A stretch of 64,000 bases of DNA, taken from positions 1 through 64,000 of the forward strand of contig NZ_DS022272.1 of assembly GCF_000153705.1 (NCBI RefSeq), in the 5' to 3' direction. Numbering within the stretch: position 1 is the first letter of the stretch; every line of letters begins with the position of its first letter. Below, one piece after another: positions 34,508-38,584 of this stretch. The position numbers and the translations under genes are program-made. Source of the stretch: Fulvimarina pelagi HTCC2506 (GTDB lineage: Bacteria > Pseudomonadota > Alphaproteobacteria > Rhizobiales > Rhizobiaceae). The notes under the pieces are model-generated. The model saw nothing but the letters and a program-made list of their open reading frames with translations, was not told the DNA's origin and ran no database searches.

Positions 34508-34535
34508 GGCCCATCGCTTCTCGCAAGAATGCCTG

Positions 34536-34570
34536 CGCCGTGGCGGACTGATCCGTCGCGGCGTTTCATT
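34536..34570 (+). terminator. Intrinsic terminator after rpmB
   Basis: A 12-bp stem, CGCCGTGGCGGA / TCCGTCGCGGCG with two G-U pairs and a four-base loop, is followed by TTTCATTT. Confidence 0.65.
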
Positions 34571-34604
34571 TCGCCGGGTGGCATATGCTGGCCGGGCGTC
34601 CATC

Positions 34605-34635
34605 CGCTGGTTCCATCACCCAGGTTAAAAAAATG
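34605..34635 (+). promoter_or_regulatory. Probable preQ1-I riboswitch overlapping the start of the transporter gene
   Basis: CTGG (34607-34610) pairs with CCAG (34620-34623) around the loop TTCCATCAC, followed by GTT, seven A and TG. The loop CAT (34614-34616) can pair with the ATG at 34633-34635 to form the H-type pseudoknot of class I preQ1 riboswitches, with the A-rich tail running along the stem. In Bacillus queC the equivalent pairing is UAG with CUA. The AGG that should serve as ribosome site lies in the stem's 3' strand, so ligand binding would hide both it and the AUG. The downstream gene, a queuosine-precursor transporter, is a known target of this RNA class. Confidence 0.7.
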
Positions 34636-35322
34636 CATTTCCTCAAGACCAATTGGCTCGCCGTTCTGGCGATGACCCTGATCGTGCTCGCCGCGAACGT
34701 CGCGGTGCAGTATCCGATGTTCGTTCAGGTCGGCCCGCTCGATCTGGCCGATCTCCTCACCTACGGGGCCTTCGTCTATCCGTTCGCTTTTCTGGTGACG
34801 GACCTGACCAACCGGCTTTATGGGCCGAAGATCGCCCGGCGCGTGGTCTATACCGGGTTCGCGACGGCTGTGATCTGCTCGATCATCGTGCCGACGGTCC
34901 TCTATGAACTAGGTCTGATTTCCTACTCCACAGGTGCCGCCCGGGTCTCACGGATCGCGATCGCCTCCGGGACGGCTTTCCTCGTTGCCCAACTGCTCGA
35001 CATCTTCGTCTTCAACAAGCTTAGGCAGGACCGCTGGTGGCGCGCGCCGGCAGCCTCATCGGTTTCCGGTTCGGTCGTCGATACGCTGGTGTTTTTCGGT
35101 ATTGCCTTCGCGCCGATCTTCTTCTTTCTCGGCCCGAACGACGCCTTCGCGCTTGAGGCCGGCCCGCTTTTCGGCCTGATGACGACCGAGGCGCCGCGCT
35201 GGTTTTCCTGGGCGCTCGGTGACTTGGCGCTGAAGCTGCTGATCGCCGCCTTCGCGCTGGTTCCGTATCGGATCATCATCGGACAAGTCCTGCCGACCCG
35301 GCAGGCAGCGACCTTTCGTTAA
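34633..35322 (+). CDS. yhhQ: Queuosine precursor transporter (YhhQ/VUT family)
   Basis: 229 residues with about six membrane spans. ADLLTYGAFVYPFAFLVTDL and TNRLYGPKIARRVVY are family hallmarks, as is the C-terminal segment beginning ALGDLALKLLIAAFALVPY. YhhQ proteins import preQ0 or preQ1, the precursors of the tRNA base queuosine. The ATG at 34633 is the one sequestered by the predicted riboswitch; an upstream frame adds 16 unrelated residues. The gene converges with the phytase-like gene. Confidence 0.92.
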   Translation: MHFLKTNWLAVLAMTLIVLAANVAVQYPMFVQVGPLDLADLLTYGAFVYPFAFLVTDLTNRLYGPKIARRVVYTGFATAVICSIIVPTVLYELGLISYSTGAARVSRIAIASGTAFLVAQLLDIFVFNKLRQDRWWRAPAASSVSGSVVDTLVFFGIAFAPIFFFLGPNDAFALEAGPLFGLMTTEAPRWFSWALGDLALKLLIAAFALVPYRIIIGQVLPTRQAATFR

Positions 35323-36461: not shown

Positions 36462-38375
36462 TCAGCGCATGCCGGCTGCACGGCGGCGATAGGTAGATTG
36501 AACACCCGGGCCTTCGTCCTCGAAGAGGGCGGCAAGTTGTTCAGTCATCGCGCCTGCGAGTTCCTCAGCATCGACGATCGTGACGGCGCGGCGATAATAG
36601 CGCGTCACATCGTGGCCAATGCCGATGGCAAGCAGCTCCACCGGCGAGCGCTGTTCGATCTCGTCTATGACTGCCCTCAGATGCCTTTCGAGGAAGTTGC
36701 CAGAATTGACGGATAGGGTCGAATCATCGACAGGCGCACCATCCGAGATCACCATCAGGATGCGGCGCTGTTCGGAGCGTTTCGAGAGCCGCGAATGGGC
36801 CCAGATCAGCGCTTCGCCGTCGATGTTCTCCTTCAGAAGGCCCTCACGCATCATCAGGCCGAGATTGCGCCGCGCCCGCCGCCAGGGTGCATCGGCGCTC
36901 TTGTAGACGATGTGGCGCAGATCGTTGAGCCGGCCGGGGCGCGGCGGCTTGCCGGCCTTGAGCCACGCTTCCCGCGACTGCCCGCCCTTCCATGCGCGCG
37001 TCGTAAACCCGAGCACTTCCACCTTCACGCCGCAGCGCTCCAGCGTGCGAGCGAGGATGTCGGCGCAGGTGGCGGCAACCGTGATGGGGCGGCCACGCAT
37101 GGATCCGGAATTGTCAATGAGAAGCGAGACGATGGTGTCGCGGAATTCGGTGTCGCGCTCCATCTTGTAGGAAAGCGACTGCATCGGATCGATAACGATG
37201 CGCGTCAGGCGGGCCGTATCCAGATAGCCTTCCTCGAGATCGAAGTCCCATGAACGGTTCTGCTGGGCCATCAGCCGGCGTTGCAGCCGGTTGGCGAGCC
37301 TGCCGACGACGCCCTGAAGCGATGTGAGCTGCTTGTCGAGGAAGCCTCGGAGGCGATCGAGCTCGGCCTCGTCGCAGAGTTCTTCCGCACCGATCTCCTC
37401 GTCGAAGGCGCGGGAATAGACCTCGTATTCTATCTTCTGGAGGGGATCGAGGTCCTTCGGCTCGGGCCTGCGGGCCTCACCGGGGGTCTCGGAGCTCTCC
37501 TCCCCTTCATCAACGACGTCGTCAGCGGTAACTTCGGAGTCTTCGGCCTCGGAGGTCTCGTCGTTCTCGCCCTCGTTCTCGGCCTCTTCGGACTGGGTGT
37601 CCTCGGAGCCGTCCTCCTTCTCGGCGCCGCCTTCCTCCTGATCGCGAACCTGATTGTCGCCCTTCTCGTCCTCGTTTTCTTCGTCGTTGTCATCCGATTG
37701 CTCGGGCTCGGCCAGTTCCTCGGCCATTTCGAGTGAGACAAGGACGTCGCGGATCGCGCGGGCAAACGCTTCCTGATTGTCCGCATGGCCGGCGAGATTG
37801 GCAAAGCGCGCGCCGACCTTTTCCTCGATCATCTCGCGCCAGACACCGACCAAGGCCTCGGCGCTCGGCGGCACCGGGCGGCCGGTCAGCGCCTCGCGCA
37901 CCATCAGAGCGACGGCGTCCTCCATCGGCGCTTCGTTGCGGTCTGTGACTTCGGTGAGGTTCGAGCGGGCGTATTTGTCCTCCAGCATGGAGGCGAGATT
38001 GTCGCCGACGCCGGGCATGGCGTTCGCACCGATCGCCTCGCAGCGAGCCTGTTCGACAGAGTCGTAGATGGCACGGGCACCCTGGCCATCGGGCGAGAGC
38101 TTGGCATGAAGTTTCGGATCGTGCCGCGCCCGGCGTAGAGCCATCGCGTCGGCGACACCGCGGGTGACTGCGACGTCATTTGTCGTCGCGCGTTTGGGCA
38201 ACTCCGGCAGACGTGCGGCATTGCCGGATAGACCAGGCCGATCAGACGAAAAGGTGACTTCGAGTTCGGCATCGCCCGCGATCGCCCGCAGGGTGTTCGC
38301 CAGCGAACGCCGGAAGGGTTCTCGATTGACCGCCTTCGTAGGGGCCGGCCGCTTGTTGTCGCCGATCTTGCTCAT
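36462..38375 (-). CDS. cobT: Cobaltochelatase subunit CobT
   Basis: 637 residues. The N-terminal domain, a long acidic linker (about 215-300, almost all Glu, Asp and Ser), and a C-terminal VWA domain with the MIDAS motif [10 protein letters not shown] are as in other CobT proteins. With CobS and CobN it inserts cobalt into hydrogenobyrinic acid a,c-diamide in aerobic vitamin B12 synthesis. Its usual partner cobS lies 2 kb away on the same strand but is separated by the opposing ade gene. cobN is not in the window. Confidence 0.94.
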
Positions 38376-38584
38376 GAGGTCGAGATAAGGGGTTTGTGCA
38401 GCAGCGGACAAGGGAGGCGAAGGCGGGGTGAGACGAAAAGATCGTTGCACGAAAGAGAACCAGGCGTTCGCCGAGACGGCACCCGTCCGCTTCAATTCGC
38501 GTTGCGGGCGGCATACCTTCGTGATCGCGGACCGCCTTCGCAGTCCCGGTCAGCGATGGTGTGGCAATCAGACAAGGGGCCCTC

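Follow-up and report, generated by a model that had tools for sequence, protein, structure and literature searches.

In rhizobia and related bacteria, the start codon of a queuosine-precursor importer appears to be folded into a ligand-binding knot

The E. coli yhhQ switch and the element in the window

The closest described system is the type III preQ1 class I switch of E. coli yhhQ, for which a co-crystal structure has been reported (PMC10622847). In that structure, the pseudoknot helix P2 consists of the pairs U11-A28, C10-G29 and C9-G30, U6 and A27 are located at the ligand, and A25 and A26 make up the floor of the pocket while A27 touches preQ1; the uridine that pairs with A27 is given as U7 in one section and as U6 in another. 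The same source reports a strong preference of the E. coli switch for preQ1, transport of both preQ0 and preQ1 by YhhQ, and a near confinement of type III switches to gammaproteobacteria, and it predicts that new subclasses with new expression-platform control will be found. In E. coli K-12, the leader of yhhQ has the sequence UUGGG-UUCCCUCAC-CCCAA-linker-AAAAAGG. In the general scheme for translational riboswitches, a separate sequester hairpin covers the ribosome site and the AUG (PMC10907184).

The window (the whole 64,000-nucleotide stretch of DNA that was analysed) contains a putative preQ1 switch of 30 nt on the plus strand at 34606–34635, which by direct reading of the sequence is GCUGGUUCCAUCACCCAGGUUAAAAAAAUG. 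An unpaired 5′ G (34606) precedes the P1 5′ strand CUGG (34607–34610), and the loop UUCCAUCAC (34611–34619) leads into the P1 3′ strand CCAG (34620–34623); the outer two pairs of P1, made with 34622–34623, covary in the 30 distinct rows described below. In E. coli numbering, the loop is composed of U6, U7 and C8 (34611–34613; the role of U6 is from PMC10622847), the P2 5′ strand C9, A10 and U11 (34614–34616), and the L2 residues C12, A13 and C14 (34617–34619), of which C14 is by homology the ligand specificity base (PMC10622847 and PMC11625349). P1 is followed by a GUU linker (34624–34626) and an A-rich L3 (34627–34632) containing, by homology, A25, A26 and A27, with roles as in PMC10622847. 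The loop CAU is complementary to the AUG start codon at 34633–34635, which would provide the P2 3′ strand A28, U29 and G30 in the register reported for E. coli (PMC10622847). The run of seven A residues extends from 34627 to 34633, and its last A is the first base of the transporter AUG. A Shine-Dalgarno-like AGG(U) is situated at 34622–34625 (AGGA in most relatives); the 3′ end of the AGG (34622–34624) is 8 nt upstream of the AUG, and its first two bases are paired in P1. The original prediction of a preQ1-I riboswitch with the start codon in its pseudoknot had described a CTGG/CCAG stem and a loop CAT complementary to the AUG after an A-rich tail, and each of these is present in the sequence of 34606–34635.

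The hairpin in the window aligns with that of E. coli without gaps, and the two nine-base loops agree at eight positions. The exception is C10, which is A in the window, and its partner, G29 in E. coli, is U; this double exchange of C10-G29 for A10-U29 converts AAGG into AAUG, which contains the start codon. The window element also has the UU after the P1 5′ strand and the AC before the P1 3′ strand that characterize type III. It does not have AAGG as the P2 3′ strand, which is AAUG in the window and in its motif-bearing relatives (the search pattern required AAUG), and we therefore class the element as a class I variant rather than as type III proper. Other departures are a P1 of 4 bp, short of the 5–6 bp of preQ1 class I, and unpaired G1 and G19. 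Thermodynamic folding of the window element was not significant (z +1.27), as may be expected of a 4-bp stem.

The gene that starts at the AUG (34633–35322, plus strand, 229 codons) encodes a YhhQ/COG1738-like protein that scores 93.7 bits against TIGR00697 (cut-off 50.95) and also matches PF02592, which bears out the earlier assignment as a queuosine-precursor transporter. Among the matches listed, the nearest proteins are from Aurantimonas (70% and 68%). The rpmB gene (TIGR00009) is located upstream of the leader and is separated from it by a terminator-like hairpin (34535–34564, plus strand), recognized by pattern match only. Two genes past the transporter, a cobT gene for a cobaltochelatase subunit (TIGR01651) occupies 36465–38495 on the minus strand. 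An in-frame ATG is found at 34585, 16 codons before the transporter AUG, with the reading frame open back to it; gene callers could thus set the start too early, across the riboswitch, and this may hide such elements.

Model searches, distribution and covariation

Nothing in Rfam scored above its gathering score in the window, and permissive searches (E up to 10) gave only chance families, with no preQ1 match in the window leader region or in 14 relatives. At the same limit, RF00522 also missed the established, structurally solved yhhQ switch of E. coli (locus L031, 4600–4800); the Rfam null on the window is consequently uninformative, and other type III switches may escape such scans as well. 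A covariance model (R2) trained on the 30-nt leaders of two E. coli-type switches found 34606–34635 exactly, as the best match in the 64 kb (21.8 bits, E 0.004; next E 0.22). R2 was also applied to 22 loci: E. coli reached 28.6 bits, the scores of three other E. coli-type leaders lay between 15.9 and 32.2 bits, and the element was recovered in 12 of 14 motif-bearing rhizobial loci with 12.8 to 22.8 bits (E 0.003 to 0.87); some rhizobial scores were weak (E 0.3–0.9), L018 and L020 were missed, and four motif-free loci gave no match. Applied genome-wide, R2 yielded no match, as the initial filter sent nothing on to scoring, and this null is uninformative. A second model (R1), built from 17 rhizobial rows that included the window sequence, was too narrow, matching the window and no E. 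coli-type switch among the loci given. The covariance scan suggested with the original prediction was accordingly silent with the curated Rfam preQ1 model, as it was on E. coli, and positive with the two-leader model. The latter result supports the preQ1-I identity, with type III as the closest relative; binding of preQ1 is inferred only.

Leaders were gathered by transporter protein search regardless of the motif, yielding 113 that could be oriented, of which 107 belong to the family of the window; 60 of the 113 were hand-picked among the matches listed for genus spread, and a partial match from the same family (L029) and a distant homologue (L030) were left out. The motif was present in 102 of the 107 family leaders, and in none of six from other families of the order. 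As anticipated, orthologous leaders keep the complementarity between loop and AUG. Of the two outcomes named as grounds for refuting the original prediction, a poor covariance score and loss of this complementarity, neither applies. The motif was absent from the remaining five family leaders. In leader L082, translation continues into the transporter. The closest congener (L002, genome G001) has no trace of the element at up to three mismatches, and a leader from a 1.1 Mb genome (L028, genome G008) contains CGCTGGTGCTCAAAAAATG, which resembles a remnant lacking part of the loop and the P1 3′ strand.

The motif is not a chance match. The window's genome has a single occurrence of the loose pattern GGNNNCATNNNCCNNNNTAAAAAAATG, and the 384 other genomes sampled across the class have none. 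Relaxed by one mismatch, the pattern was found in nine of ten same-family genomes versus none of 239 other genomes of the order; the pattern read backwards, as a control, gave three matches in the same 249 genomes. A named collection held at least 119 matching stretches, of which 80 were examined among the matches listed. These belong to Rhizobiales genera or groups in 79 cases, the other (L159) being named only 'Bacterium', and the genera among the matches listed include Rhizobium, Sinorhizobium (S. meliloti), Mesorhizobium, Agrobacterium (A. tumefaciens), Brucella, Bartonella, Aurantimonas and Aureimonas. The transporter is directly 3′ of the motif in 78 of these 80 loci; the two others (L182 and L202) extend only 5 and 90 bases past the AUG. 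The protein-sampled and named sets overlap, such that the 182 motif-bearing leaders represent 174 distinct stretches.

Conservation follows the limits of the element. For the 76 leaders left of 93 once near copies were removed, the information content averages 0.07 bit per base between −80 and −28, 1.76 over the 30 nt, and 0.31 over codons 2–11, climbing at the first P1 base and dropping at the base after the AUG. The motif pattern fixes some bases, so that the height inside the 30 nt is partly ascertained, but the edges are not; the A-tract of motif-bearing leaders was likewise required by the patterns. Among 173 30-mers from relatives, C14, which was free in the search patterns, is present in all, as the specificity base should be. 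U6 is also found in all 173 (pattern-fixed in the 80 named loci, free elsewhere). Position 7 is U in 94 and G in 79, the window having the U7 that is part of the reported conserved UU; C8 occurs in 106, and position 13, again free in the patterns, is A in 152, as it is in the window, and another base in 21. Positions 7–8 of rhizobial leaders are mostly UC, GG or GC.

A descriptor of the E. coli type, unconstrained at positions 10 and 29, was run on 249 genomes of the phylum and matched in 33, compared with 3 for the backwards control; its sole match in the window's genome is the window element. Among the loci fetched, all 27 with a transporter behind the match are complementary at 10-29 (19 C-G, 8 A-U). 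By origin, 8 of the 27 are in the window's family and 19 in other classes of the phylum, the latter probably Gammaproteobacteria and 57–78% identical to E. coli YhhQ. Of three descriptor loci without a transporter, L248 is complementary at 10-29 and L268 and L269 are not; five more listed places were left out of this count of 27 and three.

Because MAFFT misaligned the variable linker, pairs were counted on the first 19 and last 9 nt of 30 distinct rows, including 15 rhizobial rows hand-picked from 43 distinct motifs. The seven pairs are formed in 98.6% of cells versus 81.2% after shuffling (3 of 210 cells unpaired), and the covariation score of 0.409 exceeds both the shuffled mean of 0.129 (none of 500 as high) and the slid versions (at most 0.214). 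Two-sided changes occur at 2-18, 3-17 and 10-29, a number no greater than in the shuffles (3 vs 3.0). Pair 10-29 is A-U in 15 rows and C-G in 15, with no mismatch; this exchange is one event between two clades, seen many times. Inside the family P2 does not covary, since the AUG is invariant, and the covariation of three pseudoknot pairs proposed as a check on the original prediction was thus obtained for 10-29 alone, between clades. Versions starting with GUG, UUG or CUG and having a correspondingly changed loop gave two matches in 346 genomes, equal to the two of the backwards control; lacking a CCCAG strand, and any transporter match in the stretches fetched, both were rejected as chance. 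The pair statistics, without structure probing, satisfy the definition of an H-type pseudoknot (P1 hairpin, A-rich L3 and P2).

Leaders with a shifted start and alternative readings

Of the 182 motif-bearing leaders, 159 have both the AGG and an in-frame AUG, and eight lack the AGG; another 15 with an AGG could not be classified, as the short stretch gave no BLAST match. The AGG is therefore present in 159 of 160 classifiable leaders with an in-frame AUG and absent from all seven in which the AUG is not the start. Expressed the other way, the AUG is out of the transporter frame in seven of the eight AGG-less leaders (Fisher p 1.3e-11, uncorrected for kinship). The named leaders had been found with a pattern that requires the AUG; the protein-sampled leaders had not. 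Three extra leaders from the same genus as two of the AGG-less ones were fetched by protein, for a total of 11 (10 distinct). In all 11, the AUG is followed by GA (versus one of 167 others), and a single ATG or GTG is located 13–16 nt downstream of it; the AUG is out of frame in 10 of the 11, the exception being L037.

The shifted-start leaders (L005, L042, L054, L056, L136, L166, L186 and L274–L276) are from Aureimonas and its allies, where AUGGA looks to serve as the Shine-Dalgarno sequence, as AAGG does in E. coli. They keep the loop CAU, the A-tract and the AUG, and retention of the AUG where it is not the start codon supports its role as a selected pseudoknot strand. In a quick transporter tree of 99 rows, eight shifted-start rows are nested within the start-codon group with two changes; the shift probably arose twice, although a single origin remains possible. 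In L186 and L276, a frame of five codons begins at the AUG and ends in a stop that overlaps the real start (GTGA and ATGA), possibly a coupled leader peptide, and in these two leaders coupling could itself keep the AUG.

Four other readings must be weighed against a switch that pairs its loop with the AUG. The 30 nt could be coding, with the true start at ATG 34585 and the motif encoding AGSITQVKK-M: the window's reading frame is open to that codon, and a start further up in the same frame exists in 48 of 102 leaders. Such starts mean little, since a wrong frame offers one in 40 of the 102; moreover, 54 of the 102 have none before a stop, the motif differs in length in nine, shifting the frame, and variable positions 7, 8, 13 and 20 alter the amino acid. 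On account of the missing starts, the frame-shifting lengths and the amino-acid changes, we rejected the coding extension for the family and attach almost no weight to it. A DNA operator, in which a repressor binds the CTGG-N9-CCAG inverted repeat before the start codon, would explain a near-invariant repeat at a fixed position by the transporter gene. It would not explain why conservation spans a one-sided A7-AUG tail and an asymmetric loop, both matching the aptamer of E. coli, why bases of P1 and P2 are exchanged two-sided relative to E. coli-type switches, or why the translation start was rebuilt around the element in one or two lineages, and we regard it as very improbable.

Slightly more room is left for two readings that retain the aptamer, each of them unlikely. 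In one, the fold is the same and the ligand is preQ0 or another 7-deazaguanine, a possibility raised by the variation at positions 7, 8, 12 and 13, the transport of preQ0 as well as preQ1 by YhhQ (PMC10622847) and a genome that probably depends on import; against it, the ligand-reading U6, C14 and A27 are unchanged (U6 and A27 partly pattern-fixed), and the E. coli type III switch strongly prefers preQ1 (same source). In the other, a preQ1 class I switch represses without pairing of loop and AUG, because P1 and the A-rich triplex block initiation indirectly or because the AGG is hidden. The AGG is indeed half in P1 and well spaced for the AUG, and indirect occlusion is documented for a type I switch from Carnobacterium (PMC11625349), yet this leaves the retention of AUG and CAU unaccounted for in leaders where the AUG is not the start and the AGG is lost.

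Proposed mechanism and comparison with known riboswitches

We consider it very likely that the element is a class I preQ1 riboswitch homologous to E. coli type III, in which the start codon has replaced the Shine-Dalgarno sequence as the P2 3′ strand. The analysis establishes the sequence, its conservation, the homology and the gene context; that the window element binds preQ1, turns expression off and acts on translation is inferred from homology. The window's genome contains tgt and QueF, and no QueC reached the cut-off of its family (best score 26 bits against 150.3), which suggests that it probably imports preQ0 or preQ1; in such a pathway, the preQ1 level would reflect precursor taken up from outside. 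This gene content fits an importer that preQ1 switches off. The association with QueC is not general, as G022 has the switch together with QueC and QueF. Genome G001, without the element, has QueC and QueF, unlike the window's genome, and G008 has no match to either above cut-off.

When preQ1 is scarce, P2 would be open, and the ribosome could reach the AGG(A) and the AUG and make the importer. When preQ1 is plentiful, the ligand is predicted to lie between helices P1 and P2, where C14, U6 and A27 would recognize it (by homology), and to clamp C9-A10-U11 onto A28-U29-G30; the AUG, and part of the ribosome site through the P1-paired half of the AGG, would be hidden, and import would stop. In Aureimonas and a neighbouring branch, the aptamer would be kept with AUGGA as the Shine-Dalgarno sequence, so that the platform changes and the knot stays intact. 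The original prediction had both the AUG and the AGG hidden upon ligand binding. Its AUG half agrees with our analysis; the AGG is only half in P1, which covers that half in the unbound state too, such that the gain from ligand may be modest, and the hiding itself remains an inference.

We also think it probable, with less assurance than for the identity of the element, that this is a fourth type of preQ1 class I expression platform. Here, the first base of the start codon would form the ceiling pair of the ligand, the start signal and the metabolite pocket being one structure, and the conversion of a start-codon switch to a Shine-Dalgarno switch, nested in one tree, would have occurred at least once, and probably twice, without breaking the knot. 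This amounts to a natural experiment in which the expression platform was altered and the aptamer retained. The locus indicates that the initiation codon itself can be enlisted as a structural strand by one of the smallest natural aptamers known, a case the published type III model of AAGG occlusion does not cover, and it helps to explain how such switches can be overlooked in searches based on Rfam or on the Shine-Dalgarno sequence. The reading makes a prediction that can be tested in the bacterial family to which the rhizobia belong; in Sinorhizobium meliloti, impaired symbiosis has been reported for a queF mutant (PMC10570037, citing Marchetti et al.).

No preQ1 switch that uses the start codon in P2, and none in rhizobia, was found in the literature searched, which left out most subscription papers. 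The comparison included the accessible portions of PMC8632094, PMC11109978, PMC10907184, PMC12519234, PMC2258182, PMC10570037 and PMC11625349; McCown 2014, the founding type III paper, was outside the search, and an earlier notice cannot be excluded.

The element shares with E. coli yhhQ type III the gene it precedes, the loop length, the A-rich L3 and the P2 register (9-30, 10-29, 11-28), and its length equals that of the 30-nt E. coli crystal construct (PMC10622847). It differs in that the P2 strand is AAUG, with the start codon, rather than the Shine-Dalgarno AAGG, in that P1 has only 4 bp and the Shine-Dalgarno sequence lies at the P1-L3 junction with a linker of nearly constant length, and in that the rhizobial variant is confined to one alphaproteobacterial family in the samples searched. 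With class I types I and II (RF00522), it has in common the H-type pseudoknot, the C specificity base before the P1 3′ strand and the A-rich tail, whereas their loop is shorter, the window has no Rfam match, and the window has AC before the P1 3′ strand where type I has UC. The Vibrio vulnificus add switch exemplifies the use of a separate sequester hairpin over the ribosome site and the AUG. As in such riboswitches, the start codon would be rendered inaccessible in the switch proposed here; there, however, the AUG belongs to a hairpin of the expression platform, whereas in the window it would be part of the aptamer itself, as one strand of the pseudoknot that binds the ligand.
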